A model generated the notes under the pieces. It ran no database searches and was not told where the DNA came from. It saw only the letters and a program-made list of their open reading frames with translations. A program made the translations under genes and the position numbers. A stretch of 64,000 nucleotides of DNA from Polytrichum commune. Lineage: Eukaryota; Streptophyta; Polytrichopsida; Polytrichales; Polytrichaceae. The first letter of the stretch is position 1. The number at the start of each line of letters is the position of its first letter. The stretch covers positions 44,523,609-44,587,608 of the forward strand of contig OX485808.1 of NCBI GenBank assembly GCA_950295325.1, given 5' to 3'. Shown in pieces: positions 37,456-64,000 of the stretch.

Positions 37456-40400
37456 ATGGGAGACCAATTGGACGACGATCGAGACGAGGAGTGGTTCAAG
37501 CAGGTGTACGGCACGGAGTATACGGGGCCGCCGCGAGCGTCGTCCGCTCCTGCTCCTGCTCCTGCTGCTGTTGCTGGAGGGCCGGCGGTCAAGGGTGGAA
37601 GCAAGCGTCTGCCTACAGCCGTCAGTGATTCGGAAGAGGACGAGGGGCCGCCGCATGACCCCAATGCGGTTCCCACGGACTTCACCAGCCGCGAAGCCAA
37701 AGTGTGGGAGGCCAAAGCCAAGGCCGTGGAACGCAACTGGAAGCGCCGAAAGGAGGAGGAGTTGACCTGCCGTCTCTGCGGTGAGGCTGGTCACTTTGCA
37801 CAGGTTAGTGACCAGTGTTGTTGTGGTTGTTGTTCTTCATCATCATCATCGTTATCATCATGTTTTCTTTTTAAACTTCATCGTCAACGTCCGCCAACCC
37901 AGGACGAGGTGAGTGAACCTCCTCTCTCCTTCACCATCCGTCCCTGCGTGCCAATTGGAAACGAAGCGAGGCTAGGGTTAAGAAATTATTAATAATCCAG
38001 CCAAATAATTTCTTTATTATTGAATTGATTTCAAAATGGCTAACGCATACGTTGTAAATACCATACAAATTACTTCCAAATCCTCGGTCGGTGCTTGGGA
38101 TGATTGATTTTCGGGTAGTTATTTCTGTTACCCTCGTAATAATTTGAAGTTCCACAACGACAGAAAGGAGGAGTTGTCCTGCCGTCTTTGTGGTGAGGCT
38201 GTTCAGTGTCGATGATGATGATGATGTTTTGCTTTGAATTTGGTCTACCTAGGACGAGGTGAATGAACCTTGGAGTCCGGAGGTGGTAATTGGAAAGGGA
38301 TTAAAGGTAGGTTCCTGTGGGCTGGGGGTTAGAAAATTATTTGTCATCCAGCCAAAATCATTGATTGACGTGGTTTTAAAAGGGTTAATGCATATGTACT
38401 TGTTTTATTGTTTAATATGAAGAATGTGGTCACGCCGATGGGGGTCCTCAGCTGTTTCTGTTTACAATAGGTGACAATAATATGTGACAAGTCTCCAGAC
38501 AAGTACGCCCATGTTACAAAAATTCAGCGAGTCTCTTGATGGCATTTGGGAGGCCTGGATGGTAGATTGGATGAAGGTGATATTGAGAAATTTTCACGGA
38601 CTTAATAAGTTTAATTTGCATACGCACAGAAGCAACAGTTTGAGTGTTTGCCCAGACAGGGAAACTTTCTTGGGGATCTTTGCTTTTTTTTTAATCGACA
38701 CACAGAGCCAAGGTGCCACATATGCTCTTTGCGACCACTTTCAGTTCAGATGCAGTTGTGGTAAGTTTAGCAATGCGGATTTGTTTTAAAGAAGATGGGA
38801 TCAAATGCAGGGCTGTCCAACAACTTTAGGTGGTAATCGCAAGCCTGGAGAAGTGGTGGAGCGAATTCCGTTCCGGGATAAGCGACTGAAGCCTCGAATT
38901 ATAGGCACGGGTGGTGCCATTGTACAGGGCATTGAGAAGGACACAGGATGCCGGCTAAAGCTTGAAGATAATCTCACAGTTGGGAACGGGGCTTTCTTCG
39001 TGAAAATCACAGGGCCTGACAGAATGACAGTGAATAAGGGAATGACAGCCATCAACAGGCTGGTGGAGCAAGTGGAAGAGGAGTGGAAGCAACACAGTCA
39101 GGCTTCTGCTCGAAAATCTCAGCAGGGTGGAGAGCGGGAAAGAGGAGGCGCGTACCGTGGGGGAGGAGGGCCAACAGGGAACCCTATAATAGCGGTCCAG
39201 ACGCAGCACATTGCAGTGCAGAGGCAACAGCAGGATAATGTGACAGTAGGGGGTCCTGGTCGGAGGGGGAACCTGAGCACTCCTCCTGTGGATGAAGAGA
39301 AGCGCACGATTGAAATTATAGCATCACAGCTGGAGGCACGGAGGCACTGGGAAGCCACGTCTGGCTCTTCTCTGCAGACCCTGAATGGCTCATATAAAGA
39401 GGGTAAGTGGAGCCCTCAGCCTTAACTTAGTAATCCCTCGTATACAGACTCAGTTGAAGCAGAGTTAGTGCTATGAACATGAGTGGTTAGTTTCCTTTAT
39501 AGAACTGAGACGACCTATCCTTTTCTTGGGAAGCTACGACCTAGCTCCCTGGCTTGGTCCCTCCCAGGTAAGTCTCTGTTCATCCAATCCCCTTCCGAAT
39601 TTGTGTCAAGTCTGAGGATGGAAATCAATGCTTCAAGGCTCGGGTTCGAGTTGCCATTTGGGAGATACTGATGCAGAGGAGGTCACGAAGGACCTTCTGT
39701 CGGTAAGTGGCCATTTGTTCTCCTGTCTCTGGGTCCGACTTGACGGTATCCTCACATTGAAGTGATCTTCGCCGGACTCTAATTGGGGACATCCTCATGC
39801 CTTACACTCCATTTTTATGAAGGCCGCTCTGCTTCAGGAGCCGGGAGCTTGCCGCCGGCGCATCTGCTTGGTAAAGTAGACGGCAGGAGTACATATCATC
39901 CAGAAAGTGGGGTGCCATATCCTGTTCAAGCAGAGGAAGAGCTGCGAAGGGATGTCGAATATGATGCACAGAACTTGGATGAACTCGAACGTATGTTCCT
40001 GGAGGAGACCATTCAACTCACCAAGGATCAGAATACTGAGGAAGATAAGGAAAACATCCGGCACCGTGAGGTTTGTTCCTCTCCTGACTGGGTAGATGAC
40101 ACTTTCACTGAAGTAGTCGAGGATTATAACCAGTCATGTCTAGACTTCTCAACTTGGGTTTTTTGAATGTACAAGGTCTGCATAAGAACCTTTGGGGGCA
40201 TAAGGTTTCCACAGACTGGATCCTCATTGTCTTGCTACAGTGGTGGGTGTTCAAGAGGTCTCATGTCACTTTTTAGGAAGAGGGATACTGAGCGATGCTT
40301 TTCTTTAGTTTTGTATTCCAGTCTGATATTTAATGCAGCCAATCTGGTCCACTTGCAAGGTGTTTTTAAGAAGTATCTTACCTGTAATTGCTTATGGCTT

Positions 40401-41664: not shown

Positions 41665-42396
41665 AGAACAACAAGAGATCCACATCATGACGAAAGTGAA
41701 GCATCCCCGGCCACATGGCTTAGGTGCAAACTTATGATTGCGTTGGTGCAAAGGAAATTAAGTAATGTTGAAGAAGTTTACTCTCATTATTTGTACCATG
41801 CACACAATCACCCTTTATTTGTCAAGCATCTAATAAGTGTTGTTGTTAGGGTTTAGGTTTAGGACCTACTCGGGATTCATTCTCCTACTCCCTGCATCCA
41901 ACAAGTAGACACATGTTAATTTAGATTATTTAGTTCCACTTGACTAAATAACTTGCAAAGCGGCACTTTCATCCCCGTGGTTCACACGGTTGCTTAAACG
42001 AGCCAATTATAAGAGATTGTTTCCCCCCTGCTTCTAGTGCTCCCCATTCAAATACCCCATGATCTCACATTACGACCCCCTAAAATCGTCCCGTCATTTA
42101 ATCCATCGCAGTAACAAACAGGAATCATTGATTAGAGTTTACATATGCTTGTCTAGTGTAATAGGATCAGGTTATGAGTGAAGTAGCATGACGATTGGCA
42201 TCTTCTCACTTTGAACAAACAGATGTTGAGAAATACTTACACTCAGCAAGATCGAAAGGAGGAACATAAGTTAGGTGGCATCAGAGTGTGAGTCCTCCTA
42301 AGCATGTGTTTAATGAGTATGATAAGTAAGAGTGGTGGTGGTTTGTGACACCGGAGATCCTTGTGCTTTGGGTGCACATTCAACGCGAGTGTATCG
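41665..42396. other. Short spacer between the KH gene and the VPS35L relic
   Basis: No coding signal was seen. A short TTAGGGTTTAGGTTTAGG run occurs near 41,850. Confidence 0.4.
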
Positions 42397-42640
42397 ATGG
42401 CTTCCCTCCTGCCAGGCTCACGATGGGATCACGAGCACGAGGAGCAGGGCGATGAATTCATTGCGGATCCGCTGGGCGCCTCCCTCTTCACGCCATCTCC
42501 ACCTGTTGAGCCCCCCCTCTCCCCTTTCGCCATCGCCAAATCCATCTCCCGCTTTGAAGCACATCGGCACCGTGACTCTTCCAGCGCCTCCTCGGGGGCC
42601 TGCATGCGACGCGCTGGTCCTCGTCGTCGCCTCCGAGTGG
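42397..42640 (+). pseudogene. Possible first exon of the VPS35L-like relic
   Basis: From ATG 42397 the frame reads MASLLPGSRWDHEHEEQGDE, then FIADPLGAS and a Pro/Ser-rich stretch. VPS35L proteins begin with a poorly conserved, low-complexity N-terminus that often includes a DPL motif. The GC-rich composition differs from surrounding spacer. The frame runs into repeat-derived sequence after about 42,640. The link to the downstream VPS35L blocks rests on position and weak similarity only. Confidence 0.3.
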
Positions 42641-42649
42641 AACTCCTAC

Positions 42650-43500
42650 AAAGCTTCTGTCATGCATCGCTTTGGCCTCCACTGATACCATCACTGTCAC
42701 TATTGTTAGTCTCCCAAAATCATCACCCATTTTTGCGCATTTTCTCTTTGGAGGCCATCGTCCATAGATAGCATTCAGCATAATAGGGTTGTGATTACCC
42801 TCCTCGATTCTAGAATTATCTAAGTTCATGAATTATCTGCTCACTGGGCGGTTGTGACTTTTGCTTGTACAAGTCTTTTGTCAGACTTCCACTAGCACCA
42901 TCACTGTCATTACCGCTAGTCATCACCAGCGTCCGGGGAGATTTTTGGACATAATCGGTCAAAATCCTAGTGTTTCCAAGTCCAACCGGTTACATGTTGT
43001 GATTTTTCGATTGTTCTTTATTAATCTGAAATACTTTCCATAGATTCCTTTAAAGTGATCGGTAATTTTCATGTAGTCTTGAACTTCAACCGGTTATTTC
43101 TTAAGCTCAACCGGTTCATCCGTAACTAGCGGTCAGTTCTCCCCATTCATTGGTCATCACAAAACCCTCGCACCCCTTTTGCACTCTTCTTCGATGGAGG
43201 TCATTGTCTATAGATAGCATTCAGCTTAATAGGGTGTGATTGTTATCCTTAGTTCAAGACATTTGCGTTCATAAAGATTTCTTTTCTCACTGGGCGGTCG
43301 TGAATATGCTCGTGCAAAGCTTTTGTCATGCATCGCTTCGGCTCCAATGGCACCATCATTGTCACTACTGTACTCATCAACAAAGCTTCGCACCATTTTT
43401 GCAGACTTTTCTTTCGAGAATGCCCATAGATAGCGTCTAGCTGAATAGGGTCGGGGGATTCAATGTTCAATTCATCAAGATTTCTCTCATCACTGGGCGG
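42650..43500. repeat. Three degenerate copies of a ~200-bp unit
   Basis: Copies start near 42650, 42869 and 43314. Shared words in order are a TTTGTCATGCATCGCTT-like start, ACCATCA.TGTCA, CATAGATAGC.TTCAGC..AATAGGGT and CACTGGGCGGT. The second copy is expanded by about 240 bp containing several CAACCGGTT words. The first copy overlaps the possible first exon of the VPS35L relic. Confidence 0.75.
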
Positions 43501-43804
43501 TTTGTAACTTGGCTTGGGTTTTGACCCGTTCTTGACATCTTGTCGAAGGAGCCAAAAGGTGAACCATCACTGTGAACTGCAGACTTTTTCCTTCCTTATT
43601 TCATTAATGCTCAATTCCAGACGCTTCGATACTTTCTTCGCATAAGGCAAGTCTGGTAGTGTAATAACCTGGATTGTAGATGCGTGCCAGAGTCAATTAT
43701 TCCATTTTCAAAGTCAGAGAAGCCTGTTTAGATGCAGGCGACATGGGTTATGTTACATTTGACACTCTGCTTATACTATGCCTTGGGACATAAAATAATC
43801 CGTC

Positions 43805-46800
43805 ACAGCCGCCCACTTGGAGCAACTGGAGGATTCCCACAAAGAAGCTCGTGACGAATTAAGATAATTTCGCAGCAAGAGTATGTTATGCGGCTTCGCG
43901 AACTCAATGGTGAGATTGCTCTTGCATGGCTCAACAACGAGCGTGTTTCAGCCCTTCCACTGACTATCAAGGTGAGTTTGTGGATGAATTACTTACGTCA
44001 GTGCCCTGTGTGTTCTCCATTCGTTGAGATGGGACTAAGAAGTTTCAGGGAAGCGCCATGTTTTGAGTGCAACAACTTTGAAAGTGCCAATGGGATATTG
44101 CACCCTTATCAAGCAATTGGCAGCTGGCGAGGCTGTTGGTGGACACAATCAGTTTCACAATTCTATCCGACACTCTTTATTCTGGTTACAGATGTCATGG
44201 ACACAGTTGGCAATCTGGTGTGAAATCGAATCCAGAAGAAAGCTGAGGAGGATGAATTTAACAATGTGGTGGCTTCATTGCCTGGTGATCCAAATAGGAC
44301 GATACCTAGAATTTTGTTCTATTCTTAGTGAGCTTGTAACTTGAGGTGCAGTAAATTCCTCAGTTTAATACATTGACCATCCTAATTAGTAAGGGAGGGC
44401 TAATAGTGAGTATGGGAGATTAGTGAAGGTGAATCTAAATTTCTTTATGCTATGAACTGAGTGTCACCACAGGAGCTAGGAAGCACTGTTCATCCCGGCA
44501 CTATTCACTGACAAGCATGTGTTTGCATGTAATTTTTTCTATCACTCTATGAGCACCTTAGAGCACACACTAATTTTCTTGAAATGTATGGTAAATGAGC
44601 ATGTAGTCATTAATTTACTATCACTCAATAATTTTTTTAGCCCTTACTAATTTTGAGACTTAGCAAACTAGTGTGTGTTTTGGAAATTAGTACCACACGC
44701 ATTAATTGGGATAATCAGTGTAGATTAAGCACCTCCAGCGACAAATGGTTCCATATCTTTATCCTCGGTATTACGCCGGTTAATCATCCACATAAGGCTT
44801 GATTCTGGTCACACCTGAAATTGAGGGCCCCTTACTGTCAAGGGCTTATAACACTTCTCAGTTGTCCCCATCCACATGACTTGGTAATCTGTTCCCCTAC
44901 AATACCTGGTGACACAAAGCAAATCCCCATGGAGGTCGCACATAGGCCTTTGGGTTCTTGAATTTAAGTTCAAGCAGAAAGCAGATTTGAATTATTAAAG
45001 GAACACTTCATTTCACTTATCTCTGTTGTATTAGGCAAGCTTAATACCTTGTGTAACGGCAACCGCATTGTTAACTTCAGTACGATGTGATGTGATTTCC
45101 AATTGGATTCCTAAGAAGTCTTGCATATCAGTGATATGATCCAAGACACATTGTGAGCGGTCCAGAGCATTATATCAAAATTGTTATGCCTAGTTCTCAA
45201 GTCAGTCAACACTTATAAGCAGGGGAACAGTCTATCTGGTAAATGAACGGATGCACAACAAGCGTTTTTTGAGATTGTTAGTCAATCTGGCCAATTCGTC
45301 GACAACGGTCAATGTGGAGTTCAACATTGTGGTTGAGCTTCATCAAGGGCCTGCCCAACTCAAAGAACATGGAGTTGTTTTAGTTGGTTATCTATCTGAA
45401 ACATGAATCTTCTCTGACATACTTGGACTCGTTTTCAGTGAATTTTACAGCTGATGTTGTCCGTTTAGAGGCGAAGGAAACTTGCAACAATACAAGACAC
45501 GTGAAATCCTTCCATGAATGTGAGTCATCTGGCAAATTTCCTGCTAGTCAGCAATGGCTGTCCTCTACAGCTCAATCTTGTGATTGCATTCGATACATAT
45601 ATTCTGGAAGTCGTGTATTAGAGAATAACGCCAACCCGGTTTTACATCATTTGCATGCTTCAGCCATGGAGATTTTTTCATTGCAGTTATCTAGAGATTG
45701 CAATATTACGGTGCACAATCTTTTTGGAGAAGGGACCCCTGTTCCAGCCTTCCAACGGTTGACCATGATGATGCGGCAATTGCCTGATCCTTTGGCTTCC
45801 GCCTACGCACATCTTTATTTAGCTCGTCTTGCTCAACTTTTGCTCCCACCAGATGCAGGTTGTCTCACTCACGAAAACACCTGCACTTGGTTTTGTCATT
45901 CTTTGAAGGTTGAAATTTGTCATAGAACTGGCTGGTGCGTTATTTGTCCCTGTGGACTAGAGAGTCTAAAAACGCAGCAGCCATGGGCTCCTCTCGATCA
46001 CTCTTCGCAATGAATCCTGGCTTGAACGGCCGAGTAGATGACTAATTTGTGGTGCTCTTCGCCAACTACACCATTTATTGTGGTAAGTGCGATTGAAAAA
46101 TAGTACAAACATTTATGTGTGTCAGCTATCTAGAGGCTGTAAAAATGATGTGTCATGATAGCATTGGAAAAAGTGAGCCGATTGTCACAGTATTTTCATA
46201 ACAGGGGAAACGCCCTCACAATTGGTGATGATTTATACTCTTCCCATAGTTGGTGCACCTTTTAACCAGTCCTCTCACTTGTAGGGTTTAGGGTTTGTAC
46301 AGGATCTCATATTCTGAAGAATTCTAGTGGCCTTTCAAGCGTTCCACAGCTATCAGCCTTGACTACAATACCAGAATCTCGAGGTCTGCTTCTGGCTTCC
46401 AGGTTCTTACCAGAATTTAGAATTGTACGTGCAATGTTTGTCACAACAGTGATCAGATTTAGTCCTACCTGTAGTTACTGGTGATAGGGACTGCTAGTAT
46501 CCTCCATGGAGATTCTTCTATGGGTGTCTTGTTCACAATTTGTATTTGATGTTGGACTATTTTCTACAGGTTACCTAATAAGGTCTACATGACTACCTGA
46601 TTCTTTTTTGGTGTGTAAACCATGGGGAGTTTGATAAGAACATCACCTCATGTGGGGTTGATCGTTGAATGCGCGCAATGCTTGTGTAGCCTGCGTTTGA
46701 GTGGATTGTTTAATAATTATTCAAGAATGAAAATGAGGTTCTGTATGGATGCATCTTGCCATTACATGAACCCCACAAATATCTGCATATAATGGAGGAT

Positions 46801-48047
46801 CACTTTGTGTTGGCCCTGTTGGTACAATCTGAGGTGCTATTGAACATACATCATGGTTGACACATGTTATAGCAGCTCTCTGAAGCAATAATCTGTTGGG
46901 CAGGATGAATTGGCAGTAGTGGTTCATACATTTGGAGACGCCCAGCCCATATGCTCCAAGCAAAGAGCTGCCAGTGGGTCTCAAGGTGTACTGGAGCCAG
47001 TTTCTGTAATCCTGTACTGCATCCTGGAGCAACTGCCTGCAGCCTACATTGCAAGGGAGGCTTTGAACATCTTGAGAATGATGAGATATTCAAATGATAT
47101 CTCTTTATCTCAGGTTAGTTCTAACCGCAACTTTAGGACAAAGTCACCTGCTAGTGTTTGATGGTTTTCTTCCCTGCCAGTCTCTCTAGCTTGCTGCCAT
47201 AGTGTGTCCTGCCAGATTTTGTAGTCCTGCAATAAACGTCGTACCATGTGTACTCAATTTTCCCTTGCCAGCACATCAAATATAAGATGTTTGGAATGAA
47301 GCTTTGCGACTGCTGCCTCCACGTCACGATTGGATCACCATTTTGAACGATGCATGGAATGTGAGTTTTTGTGCATTGGGTATCTTTTGCATGTTCTGAT
47401 GGACTTTTGATGGTAAGACCAATAGGATACATGTAGAGGTTCATATTCAAAGCATCCATTACTAGTTGCTACTCATTATGCAACACACCAGAGTTGGATG
47501 ATTTCGATGTTACCAAAATGACAACCCCTTTAGATTATCATTTCCAAATTAGTTATGGAGTTCAGAAATGACTTTGTGAACAATTTGGTCTGCATGATGC
47601 ATTCAAGAATGAGGTCCAGAGCTGGTTAAAGAGTTCCCAATCGTCAGTTAATAGGGGAATCTGCACTATTTGCAGGTGGTCATGGCATTCATGTTTGACG
47701 GAATACATGGAGGTAGCTGAGCTATATGTGGATTACATACTTCAGAGCTGCACTTTAAGTACCTGAGCATTTTATCCCTGTCTAAAATGTGAGAGTTTGA
47801 TACGGGGTTCAGAATTTATCATATTTTCTCTTCATTGCCTAGCCCTTCACTGAACCATCTAATGGTCTTATTACACATCCAGTACTAATTGACATGTATT
47901 TAGGAGGTGGAGTTGAAAATACTTCTGAAGGACATATGAAAACACTTATCCAAGGGCGATGTATTAGAGGCAGTCCTGATGTCATTGGAGCCAATTGTGT
48001 TCAAGCTGGTTCCTCATTACAATGATCTTACAAAAGTTCTGAATCTG
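43805..48047 (+). pseudogene. VPS35L: Unprocessed VPS35L (retriever subunit, C16orf62 family) pseudogene
   Basis: Blocks matching plant VPS35L occur in protein order. They are HLEQLEDSHKEARDELR with YVMRLRELNGEIALAWLNNE (43805-43971) and SQFYPTLFILVTDVMDTVGN (44124-44330). Next are DVVRLEAKETCNN (45441-45491) and PVPAFQRLTMMMRQLPDPLA with SAYAHLYLARLAQLL (about 45,735-45,880). Last are VSVILYCILEQLPAAYIARE (46910-47113), EYMEVAELYVDYILQSCTL (47,690-47,760) and SLEPIVFKLVPHYNDLTKVL (about 47,904-48,047). Several retain GT donors or AG acceptors at boundaries, so introns are kept and this is not a retrocopy. Lesions include in-frame TAA at 43865, frameshifts near 43,870 and 44,147, TGA at 44221 in place of a conserved Trp, a frameshift near 47,755 and TGA at 47937. 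Retriever recycles endosomal cargo, and this copy could not make the protein. The C-terminal half is missing. Confidence 0.75.
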
Positions 48048-49499
48048 GTGAGTAACAGCTCATTCATTTTATTCTGCATGCTCGGATACTGCAAACACTA
48101 TTGGTGATTTCAAGAATAGTTCTTGACTTGTGGCAAAACTTCAAGTACTTTGTAGTAAATAGACATGATTTGGATGGTTATGATTGGGTTGAGAATGCAA
48201 GTTAAATAATACTAAATCCTATTGACAATTGCAGATTGGTGTGGGCATTTCGGGTCTAAATCGAACTTCAACTGTCAGGGTCTTAAAACAATCACAAGTG
48301 GACACAACAAGAGCCTCATCAAGAGCAGTCATGCCTAATCTGAATGAAGCCAAAGTATGAGTGCACTTGATCTGATAGTGAAATCCACAGGAAAAAATTC
48401 ATCACCTTTACAGGTCTAATCTTGAATGGTGATGTACGAATTCGGATTGTGATGAGAGATCTTATCAATTCTGCAAAATATGATTACTCTCAACTGTCTT
48501 TCATAACACTGCATATCTAGAGCTCATAACAGTCTCAATTTGTTTTAAGAAATGTAAAGTAAGATTTGCGTAAGTGAAGCTTTAGTGGAAGGGTCTCCAT
48601 GTTATCGTCTGCAGCAATTGGGTCCATTGCTCGCTCACCAATTTGACATGTTCTTCTGACTTTCAAATCACAGATGATCTAACTAGATATGTTTGGTGAG
48701 AAACAAATAGTTTTTATGACACTGCAAACTTTTATCACAATCAAAATGGAAGTTTGGAAAATTGCCCTCAAGATCCTCTAGACCGTGTGAATTCTCTATA
48801 TACCTTACATGTGGCTATCCTTATGTTGTAGACGAAAGTTCACTTATATGCTGGTCAGAGGCTATTGCAGACCAAGCGAACCTCGTCTTCGACGAACATA
48901 ACGGGAACATAACAGAAAGGACGCAAACAGAGATACAATCAATGGCGCCCTGTAATAATTAAATTTCCCTGCTATACATGTTCAGATGCAGGCGAAGCTT
49001 GAAGGTGTGAAGTTTGACAAAACAAACCAACCTCAACCTCCATCTCGCTCTGGAGATACCTACAATTTCGTCACTTTACCGGTTCTAACCCTCACAGGCA
49101 AATCGATCCCCGACAGCTGCCTTCTCCCTTCCTACCACTCACCGACCTCCTCTGAACTTGCCTTGCATTTATTCTCTCCTTACAACCAGGATCATGGTAG
49201 AATATCTTAAAACTGATTAATTAAAATAAATAAAAATAAATCACATAACATGTCGTCAGGGTAAAAACTTCACTTGCATGTTATCATGATGAAAACAAAA
49301 CGCTCACAGACCCAGACCCCATCACGGTTTATTATAAATCCTAAACCGAAACTGATTGATAATGTCCAGATAATTTCTATATTTCTCCATTTCTCCTTCA
49401 GGTTGGCATTGGAGTGTTCACAAAATACATCTTGATATACTCCTTCCTAATTCTTCAACTCCCCTCCTCAAACACGCAACTTTCTCATCACTGAATTTC
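48048..49499. other. Region after the VPS35L relic, no assigned gene
   Basis: Two exon-like pieces follow splice-acceptor-like AG. One is 48236-48358, reading IGVGISGLNRTSTVRVL to a TGA. The other is 48986-49210, reading MQAKLEGVKFDKTNQPQPPS to a TAA. Neither matches the next expected part of VPS35L or a family I recognise. Confidence 0.3.
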
Positions 49500-49928
49500 T
49501 TATTCTTCCGATTCTATGTCTGCTTGAGCCGGTTGGGAGAGTAGATTTAGTCTCCAAACCCTCACGGGCTGCAAACACCTCTTGATTGAACGAAAGAGGA
49601 TCCGGCTCACCCTCTTAATCCTCAAAAAACAGCTTTTTCTAAATCCCTTTTGAAAATACCATCCTCGAGGAGAGTCGTCACTGACCTTGCCCCTTGCTTC
49701 TAGATTCCTCTCCTCCAATGAAGACCAAAGCTTCGATGCTTGCAGAAGAGCTCTCACATAAGAATTATGAATTTGGAGATTATGGTAGCAGTATTCGAAG
49801 AGAGGAACTGGATCGTGGAGGAGCTTGTCAAACAACAACAACAAGCATGTAAAGTACATGTGGATTTGACAAATTGAGGAACTACATTGAATATATAACT
49901 CGAACTTTTGGAGCTTAACCATTAGCAC
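49500..49928 (-). CDS. Hypothetical ORF, 142 residues
   Basis: A minus-strand ORF from ATG at 49928 to a stop at 49500. The middle and C-terminal part (for example LLQASKLWSSLEERNLEARG and LRIKRVSRILFRSIKR) has a protein-like, basic composition. There is no transmembrane region, signal peptide or known motif. It lies between the VPS35L relic and a foldback element. It may be a chance ORF or a gene fragment, and it is listed only because it is one of the few longer ORFs in the spacer. Confidence 0.2.
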   Translation of the reverse strand: MLMVKLQKFELYIQCSSSICQIHMYFTCLLLLFDKLLHDPVPLFEYCYHNLQIHNSYVRALLQASKLWSSLEERNLEARGKVSDDSPRGWYFQKGFRKSCFLRIKRVSRILFRSIKRCLQPVRVWRLNLLSQPAQADIESEE

Positions 49929-59748: not shown

Positions 59749-60707
59749 CTATCATTGTGACTTATTTTTAGTTCATGCAAATGCCAATTACTAAAACATG
59801 ATTTGGTCTATCTTGTAATGCAATTAATGTCATGGATGATTGAAAATTGGATGGAAAATTACTTTGTAAGTAATAATAATTGTAACCATTGGAGATCTAC
59901 AATGTCCAACTTTTTCTTACAAGGAATGACAATATAATGTTATGTTCATATTTAGTGTTGGTGACACTCCACATGGAGTGTGAAACAATATTGAGCGAGA
60001 CATATAGAATTGGTGACACTAAATACAATATTTTGTGTAAGGTAAAAGTGCCTTAAAACAACACTTTCCTTTAGGCAACACCTATATTTCATCCTTAATT
60101 ATCAACAAGCGAGTGCAATTGTGGTGCCATCAAGTAAGTCATTGCTAAAAATGATTAATCATATGTGGCATTAAGTACAAAATAACGTCACCTTGACCAT
60201 TTAAAGCGATGATGTAAGAAGGATGCAAGAATGCTTTAAAAAAAAGCAACAACTTTGGGCAATCACAATGATTGATTAGGGATTTATCCGTTCAATGAGG
60301 TGATGTGAGAATTGATCCATAAAATGAAGACAAACACCTTCATTCAATGAATCCCAACAATAAAATTGATTTCGCAGTGATTCTCACCTAGCAATCCAAC
60401 ATCAATGACCCCCCCTTAGTAGAGAGTAAAAATTAAGTTCTTCAAACAACTATGCAATTTTTTTTAAGTTGTACAAGAATTTATAATTTATTGATTAAAT
60501 TATGTAGACTTTGTATAGATTTGTAAATCTATGATTTATTTTGAAAATCCCAAAATATTTAAGTTACTTAAATTTTATTATTATTTTAATTAAGATGACC
60601 ATTTTAGGCTCAACTACCTTAGTATTGAGGGGAGGCATTGAGGGAATGAGCGAGTGGGTGATCGGGTAACAAGGGTTGGAGGGCAGGCGTACATGTTTCT
60701 CTAAGGC
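59749..60707. other. AT-rich spacer
   Basis: No ORF, element ends or RNA gene seen. Confidence 0.4.
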
Positions 60708-61631: not shown

Positions 61632-61767
61632 GCTGCTGCATTGGCACTCGATCAATCTCTCGCGCTCTCTCTCGTTCTCTAGCTCTTCCCCCCGCGTTCG
61701 TTCGCGTGTGCGTGCGTGCATGGTGTTCACCATCTAGAGCCTCCCTCTCTCCCGCCCGCATTCGAGC
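61632..61767 (+). promoter_or_regulatory. Pyrimidine-rich leader of the cytochrome b5-domain gene
   Basis: A CTCTCTC-rich stretch (61,650-61,690) followed by a GC-rich segment leads to the ATG at 61768. The whole leader starts immediately after a transposon end, so part of the core promoter may lie within the transposon. Confidence 0.45.
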
Positions 61768-64000
61768 ATGGCCCCTCTGGATGACACCACCCACCACCTG
61801 AACTTGAGTCACAGGCAGTTTAGCTACGAGGATGTGGCAGCTCACAGCACCACCGAGGATGCGTGGGTAGCAGTGGACGGGGAAGTTTACGATGTCACCA
61901 CCTTCTTGCACAATCACCCTGGAGGCGCTCAAGTGAGCACACAAACTCACTCTCACCCATTCTCGTTCTCTTCTTATTTTCCTTTTTCCTACATACCATA
62001 TAGCTGCGGTGGTAGATTCTAAGAGAAGAGGGCATCGAGAATTCAAGAATGTCTTTTCTCTCTGTTCTCTTCTCTTCTGTTCCCCCCTAGGTGCGGAACA
62101 TAAGAGAAAATATGAGATGAGAATGTACGTTTTGGGTGGACCACTATAATCTGGGCATTATTGCCTAGGATGTCGCACCTGGTTCGCATAGCGGCGCATT
62201 CTCGGGTGTGTAATAGGTTTTAGAGAAATTAAAGAGCATTTGAAGGTAGTCGATTCTGCCCTTTTAGCTGCACATAAGTGCGGGTTGTTGGAGCTTGGGT
62301 TTGTTCTTGTATGTGGTTCACACTTCTTCGGTTTTGAAGTGATGGCAGATCTTCAATGTCTGGAACATGAGCACTCGTTCAGATCCGCGTCTTCGTACCG
62401 CCTCCCTCTCGCTCTCCCCCTTTCCCCCCTCTCTGTCTGCACATAGTCGTCACAAAGCTCCAGAGGGTTTATAAGAAAAACGATTCAGTCCGCCATAAAT
62501 GCAGCAGTTGATCGAGGGTGGATTATAACTTGGAGTTCAGTGTGCATCGCACCATGGTTGCGCTGCGATCCAACATTACCTTCTGTAACAATAAATGAAC
62601 ATCTTCCAAGGATGTGCAGTTTTCTCTGTTCATGAAGCAATGAGTTGATTCAAAGTGGTGCTTGGAGTTGGATGTTCCAAGGGAACAAGGGTCTGCTTGC
62701 TTGAGAGAGTCCTTCATGCAACTGTCAATAGCTGTGTTTAGATTGGACATGTTGGGGATGAAAAGAAAGGGAAACCTGTTTTTTGAATGATGGGGTGACG
62801 ACATGCACCCAGGTTATTCTGGAGCACCTCCAAGAAATGGATGCAGGCCCCCTGATGAGGGGAATGACCAGGGGCTCAGACCACGCCCACAGTGATGCTG
62901 CCTTTGGCATGCTCGAAGAATACCATATTGGGACTCTCAATAATTCATCACGGTATAGCCATCAATCTTAACCCTCTCTAATCTTGCCAGTTTAAGATGA
63001 TCTGTTAGAGGGAAGTGTACATCTGATGGAAGTTCTTGTTGTGAACTGAAAAGGGTGATGTAGAGTGGAAAAATCTTGTACCCCATATCGTAGCCAAATG
63101 ATGAAAAGAAAATGCAGGTTTCTCATTGTGCATCCAACGTCAATCAACAATGAATAATTATCATGTACAGAGGCACCACTCACTTTCTCTTTATGTAAAA
63201 CTTGATGAAGAGCAGTGAACGGTCAACAACAATGCAGTCACTAGGAATGGCAACTGACATTTCAAAGACATACAGGGTTGACTTAGCCAAGCCCTTGGTG
63301 TTTCAGGTAACTCATTAGCTGCTAACCAAATCTTGTACTACAGTCCTGGTTGACGGTGTTAACTTTGTTTTTGTCAGGTAATATTAGCAGTAAGCTATTT
63401 GTCTTGATGCAAGATGGGATTCCGTCTTGTCATTATCTATATGTCTGGTGCCTGTGACATACAGTAATGCATGTCACTCAAGTGCGGAAATTCTCCTGTT
63501 TATGTTCCACTCAGGTAGGACACCTTGGGGAGGGTTACCAAGAATGGGTACATCAGCCTATAGTCCAAAAGGAGAGCCCACGATTCTTTGCAAACAATTT
63601 CTTGGAGGTAAAATACTATCAATTGTTGTTTCAAGAAATCAGACATTGGACTATGTTTCAACTTGTGCTCATCCATGTGCATATGAATTATTGCAATGAA
63701 TCTGTTTGTGAAGCTAGGAATTTTTTAAGCAGATTATGTGGGCTGAGTTTCTGCACTGTCATTTCTTGATGAATTCAAGTGATTTGGTTTGGTAACAATG
63801 CAGCAGAATTTGCCTCCCTCCCTCTTGGCCTGCTTTTTATTTATTGTGCAGCATTTCTACTATTTAAGCGAAAGTATCAGCTGACGAATACTGTTAATCA
63901 CATAGTATAGTTGGCGAAAGTGTTGGTAAACAGAGGTCTGCCAATTGAGAAAGTGCAACTCAAACTTTTTGTGTGCTTGCAGGCTTTGACAAAGACATTG
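61768..64000 (+). CDS. Cytochrome b5 heme-binding domain protein, 5' part, cut by the right edge
   Basis: Exon 1 (61768-61932, 55 codons) encodes MAPLDDTTHHLNLSHRQFSY then EDVAAHSTTEDAWVAVDGEV and YDVTTFLHNHPGGAQ. It contains the core b5 signature, with the first axial heme ligand His50 in HPGG. It ends at a GTGAGC donor in phase 0. A ~2 kb intron follows. The best next exon starts at 63983 after TTGCAG and reads ALTKTL in phase 0 to the window end, giving HPGGAQ-ALTKTL. This is the place where b5 proteins continue toward the second heme His, which is outside the window. Without the C-terminus it could be a tail-anchored microsomal b5, a soluble b5-like protein or the N-terminal domain of a b5-fusion enzyme such as a desaturase. 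The b5 fold donates electrons to lipid-modifying and P450 enzymes. The domain call is secure and the exact protein is not. Confidence 0.85.
61933..63982 (+). other. Long first intron of the cytochrome b5-domain gene
   Basis: It starts GTGAGC at 61933 and ends TTGCAG at 63982. Several short ORFs inside lack domains or good splice context in the right phase, so I see no further coding exon, though a small one cannot be excluded. Confidence 0.55.

Follow-up and report, generated by a model that had tools for sequence, protein, structure and literature searches.

A truncated, intron-bearing copy of VPS35L and a full-length VPS35L gene near opposite ends of one contig in the moss Polytrichum commune

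The 64-kb window analyzed here (G000:C6:44523609-44587608, on contig C6 of 44,651,608 bases) carries on its forward strand, at 42397–48255, a decayed copy of exons 1–11 of VPS35L in which introns are retained. We consider this feature to be an unprocessed pseudogene that would have arisen by DNA duplication and subsequent decay, its open-framed parent lying near the left end of the same contig, and assign this reading a probability of about 0.95. The preliminary description had recognized a collinear, intron-containing VPS35L pseudogene, and alignment to this genome's full-length gene bears this out: the collinear series of 11 exons spans 42397–48047, the introns can be aligned, the DNA match reaches 48255, and 10 of the 11 exons are lesioned by a frameshift, a stop or a lost splice site, exon 8 alone being free. 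The extent proposed at that stage, 43805–48047, is right for the end of exon 11 but misses exons 1 and 2, placing the start ∼1.4 kb too late. Truncation after exon 11 had also escaped notice. When the parent protein is searched against all 64 kb of the window at E ≤ 1, no match extends past residue 546, so that exons 12–22 are absent; the same search rules out a 3′ half displaced within the window.

The lesions are of several kinds. Exon 1 (42397–42704; 269 of 303 positions identical to the parent) keeps its ATG and has a 12-base deletion, a 3-base insertion and two 1-base insertions, while at exon 2 (43528–43558; 30/31) the acceptor AG has become CC. Exon 3 (43809–43971; 151/163) has a 1-base deletion followed by a TAA at 43865. 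This stop, listed previously as a lesion, is indeed present, but it is no point change, being the first stop downstream of the deletion. A 1-base insertion and a stop at 44221 mark exon 4 (44124–44284; 149/160); exon 5 (45439–45519; 72/81) has 7- and 9-base deletions and a stop at 45515. Exons 6 (45687–45858; 155/172) and 9 (47272–47360; 78/89) each have a 1-base deletion. Exon 7 (46570–46737; 155/168) combines a 2-base deletion with stops at 46666, 46687, 46711, and 46714, whereas exon 8 (46904–47113; 195/210) is gap-free with an open frame. The series ends with exon 10 (47676–47754; 74/79), which has a 2-base deletion and a donor changed from GT to TT, and exon 11 (47904–48047; 136/144), with a stop at 47937.

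Thus, seven parent codons are stops in the window copy. Those at 44221 and 47937, both named in the preliminary description, are confirmed against the parent as TGG to TGA changes. Frameshifting gaps, also noted in that description, occur in 8 of the 11 exons (1, 3, 4, 5, 6, 7, 9, and 10). Its statement that splice sites are retained holds for 19 of the 21 sites compared, at which AG or GT is kept, but not for the exon 2 acceptor and the exon 10 donor. With its stops, its frameshifts and exons 12–22 missing, the copy has no open frame for the full protein and, as far as its sequence tells, would be unable to encode VPS35L. It has the characteristics of an unprocessed pseudogene, namely retained introns, disabling lesions and an open-framed parent gene in the genome; the retained introns rule out a processed (retro)pseudogene. 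At E ≤ 1, translated pieces of the copy, with X at stops, match human VPS35L (E 3.1e-19) and no other distinct sequence in the PDB. For these pieces and for the parent, PDB searches with cut-offs of 1 and 0.001, respectively, indicate homology to VPS35L as against retromer VPS35.

The full-length gene occupies C6:45396-36666 on the reverse strand, 37–45 kb from the contig end; the window copy lies near the opposite end of C6. The full-length gene comprises 22 exons, which join into a 920-codon frame that stays open up to its terminal stop, and all 21 introns start with GT and end with AG. We set the exon limits by eye at GT/AG, guided by VPS35L sequences, so the canonical sites are partly there by construction; the in-phase joining of 22 exons into one open frame is no product of how the limits were placed. 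Residues 110–849 of the product match residues 153–872 of human VPS35L (8p0v_O; E 2.3e-125), its sole PDB match at E ≤ 0.001, and in this the parent resembles the retriever subunit VPS35L (C16orf62). In contrast, plant residues 1–109 fall outside the human match and are the least certain part of the predicted protein, and the window copy, by its sequence, would no longer encode the protein. The left gene presumably makes the plant's VPS35L. Where the preliminary description had left a choice between an intact paralog and loss of the gene, the genome search thus finds the paralog, open over its full length and on the same contig, and contradicts the loss.

The two C6 copies are identical at 1464 of 1600 exon positions (91.5%) and at 2908 of 3570 intron positions (81.5%; Jukes-Cantor distance 0.213). 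At gap-free codons, 453 of 528 residues are identical, and differences at codon positions 1, 2, and 3 number 48/534, 27/535, and 61/531. Over the 521 codons compared in this single pair, from which the 7 stop codons were excluded, dN/dS is 0.40 by NG86 (0.064/0.160) and 0.54 by YN00 (0.069/0.127). We read values of 0.4–0.5 as the joint outcome of one constrained branch and another that would have been released from constraint during part of its history. In the exon 7–9 stretch, three copies were compared for changes that each has alone: the window copy has 93, a piece near the right end of contig C7 (see below) 15 and the full-length gene 4. As the window copy's total also covers the branch that connects it with the other two, the counts are no rate test.

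In a comparison with 30 kb around the left gene (C6:24001-54000), the entire matching stretch, window 41974–48255, aligns to C6:45834-39896 (−) as collinear blocks with gaps, at 75%–85% identity. Since the remaining window yields only short repeat matches to these 30 kb, the duplicated block is short. The match is broken in the intron 1 region (42926/43149), where an interspersed repeat lies at 42936–43152 on the forward strand, with copies at C2:70235959-70236175 and C7:42075843-42076053. The end of exon 1 and the start of intron 1 also recur as diverged copies, in the window at 42647–43516 and in the full-length gene at C6:45142-44368; Tandem Repeats Finder reports no repeats in window 42000–49500. 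Elsewhere in the window, one of ten open reading frames matches Pfam at E ≤ 0.01, to two KH-type families (KH_1, E 2.4e-7); it lies upstream of the pseudogene at 38790–39425. The two frames that overlap the pseudogene have no Pfam match at this cut-off. The frame at 61738–62022 resembles what we take to be the start of a cytochrome b5 domain.

Searching the genome with the 920-aa protein gives 44 matches at E ≤ 10, which group by our count into six loci, a lower bound because only the best candidates were scored. The seven large contigs (C1–C7) account for 406.1 of the 407.8 Mb of the assembly. Besides the full-length gene (21 matches) and the window copy (11 matches), there are pieces near the left end of C7 (C7:7482-8710, −; 4 matches), the right end of C7 (C7:42068479-42069232, +; 3 matches) and the right end of C2 (C2:70233957-70235227, +; 4 matches). 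The sixth locus is internal on C2, at 30 of 70 Mb (C2:30073995-30074132, −), with one protein match (E 0.106) and three DNA matches of 83%–84%. The other five of the six loci found lie less than 86 kb from a contig end and are transcribed toward that end. Because the copies at the various ends did not arise independently of one another, we attach no probability to this clustering. The window copy is 80–86 kb from the right end of C6, which terminates in TTTAGGG telomere repeats, and so lies near a chromosome end. Telomere repeats are also present at both ends of C7. The first 2,000 bases of C6 are N; at the right end of C2, the terminal 10 kb contain 7,500 N and show no telomere array.

Identity to the full-length gene is 97% for both the C7 left and the C2 right piece, and 98% between the two; each lacks the same ∼0.7 kb (C6:38291-39001). 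They also have flanking DNA in common, 1.76 kb at 95% identity and four smaller blocks at 93%–97%, the regions that share fragment and flanks being G000:C7:6608-17545 and C2:70229998-70235676. This sharing of flanks hints at exchange between chromosome ends. A further 2.2-kb block (94.6%), common to C7 left and C6:30683-32870, breaks collinearity with the gene piece; hence, repeats also move in these regions. Otherwise, the neighborhood of the gene has no further match with C7 out to 28 kb or with C2 inward to 70.219 Mb, the two exceptions being a repeat common to the C7 and C2 regions and a 541-base block common to C7 and C6:24001-24540. The C7 right piece, with exons 7–9, shares 97.5% identity with the full-length gene; a unit of ∼112 bases occurs in it three times. 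The flank of the window copy was not seen at C6:24001-54000; flank sharing was observed for C7 left and C2 right.

The internal C2 copy has exon 10–11 sequence and then, in order, flank from past the truncation point of the window copy. In the window, this low-copy flank lies at 48507–49435 on the forward strand and matches the internal C2 copy at 75% in the same order and orientation; its genome matches are the window itself, two adjacent places on C2 and a 336-base piece at C6:1.298 Mb. This in-order match of exons 10–11 and the flank beyond the truncation makes a common truncated ancestor of the window and internal C2 copies probable. Over ∼450 bases, however, the internal C2 copy is no nearer to the window copy (0.194) than to the full-length gene (0.171), which speaks against such an ancestor; two freely decaying copies could also give these distances. 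An interspersed repeat of ∼220 bases at window 59812–60039 adjoins or lies inside other VPS35L copies (C2:70235387-70235600 and C2:30075322-30075543).

For partners of retriever and of the CCC complex, the searches detected exon matches only. A VPS26C query gives four collinear matches at C4:4441440-4444579 (E 3.7e-16, 3.0e-6, 3.6e-4, and 0.059), the best at 60% identity; a fifth, on C6, was set aside at E 0.319. The Pfam Vps26 search finds two loci, the frames of which we take to be VPS26A/B-like, and VPS26C surfaced only with the direct query. Two of three Metallophos_2 matches, at C2:68.186 Mb and C1:34.657 Mb, fit VPS29 structures, each as one piece of 55–58 residues; the third fits another metallophosphatase. 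CCDC22 has two matches at C1:41.49 Mb, the better of which matches human CCDC22 at E 1.1e-12; this family search also matched, below the cut-off, in 1 of 14 control genomes. CCDC93 is weakly matched at C5:7.303 Mb (E 2.5e-5; 0.014 in the PDB search), with a second match at C2:59.30 Mb, and COMMD has one match, at C4:29.41 Mb (E 3.7e-6). The COMMD, CCDC93 and Vps26 family searches matched none of the 14 control genomes. According to PMC11397296, a plant homolog of VPS35L had been identified without having been studied, and no COMMD homologs are found in seed plants.

Loss of retriever, raised in the preliminary description, would make the window copy this lineage's only VPS35L gene, and a dead one. 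The copy does look dead by its sequence; the lineage is nevertheless most unlikely to have lost VPS35L, given a full-length open gene on the same contig and exons of VPS26C, VPS29 (two loci), CCDC22, COMMD and, weakly, CCDC93, the partners for which a genome search had been suggested. Taken together, the partner searches do not show loss of the retriever and CCC set. An assembly error, with sequencing faults posing as lesions or an allele placed wrongly, has nothing seen in its favor and is in our view equally improbable: with exons 91.5% and introns 81.5% identical, an allele or assembly duplicate is implausible, the intron value being far below the level that alleles or errors produce, and lesions of several kinds affect nearly every exon.

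A less remote alternative, though still an unlikely one, concerns how the copies spread and would leave the window copy a pseudogene: transposable elements, rather than exchange between chromosome ends, may have captured and moved pieces of VPS35L. Differing partial, intron-bearing pieces at several loci, one of them internal, are consistent with this, as is an interspersed repeat that borders a VPS35L piece at C2:70235387 and splits one at C2:30075541. Next to the C7 right piece lies a repeat (G000:C7:42066904-42067600) with 18 listed matches including itself, on C1–C7, both near ends and internal; its presence on all seven large contigs also fits capture. Transposition accounts less readily for five of six loci at contig ends in a single orientation relative to the end, or for the flanking blocks common to C7 left and C2 right. 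Subtelomeric segmental duplication, known for example from Plasmodium falciparum (PMC2279139), has a similar spread over several chromosome ends, a single orientation and flanks like those of C7 left and C2 right; in contrast, the C6 pair shares only ∼6 kb in the 30 kb compared, and one locus here is internal.

These data are best accommodated by a duplicated, unprocessed pseudogene. Like others of its class, the window copy has introns, some upstream DNA, collinear exons, disabling lesions and an open parent in the genome; it is unusual in keeping only exons 1–11 of 22 and in lying, with its parent, near opposite ends of one contig. We infer the duplication, the order of truncation and decay, and the working state of the left gene. 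Either a block starting ∼0.4 kb before the ATG and ending within intron 11 would have been duplicated, or the whole gene was duplicated and lost part of its length later. Stops, frameshifts and splice-site losses would then have built up in the right-end copy of C6, while its left-end counterpart kept an open frame and presumably supplies VPS35L. More tentatively, a working VPS35L may sit in a chromosome-end region that is repeatedly copied between ends, giving a series of copies that are born and die; individuals or close relatives may then differ in how many working copies they have and where these lie, and the window copy, in light of its dN/dS of 0.4–0.5, may itself have been functional for some time. 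We rate this broader picture as possible and somewhat doubtful.

Our literature search on plant VPS35L and VPS26C, chromosome-end duplication, the Polytrichum genome and bryophyte telomeres found nothing on this locus, which is no proof of absence in print. For the moss, the window copy is ordinary gene-duplication debris and no gene loss, and a would-be case of retriever loss is removed. Instead, one and the same genome yields plant VPS35L at full length and, besides it, exons of VPS26C, VPS29, CCDC22 and COMMD. The pieces of VPS35L across chromosome ends offer a modest, testable example of duplication near ends, and this pattern is the only part that a specialist might follow up.
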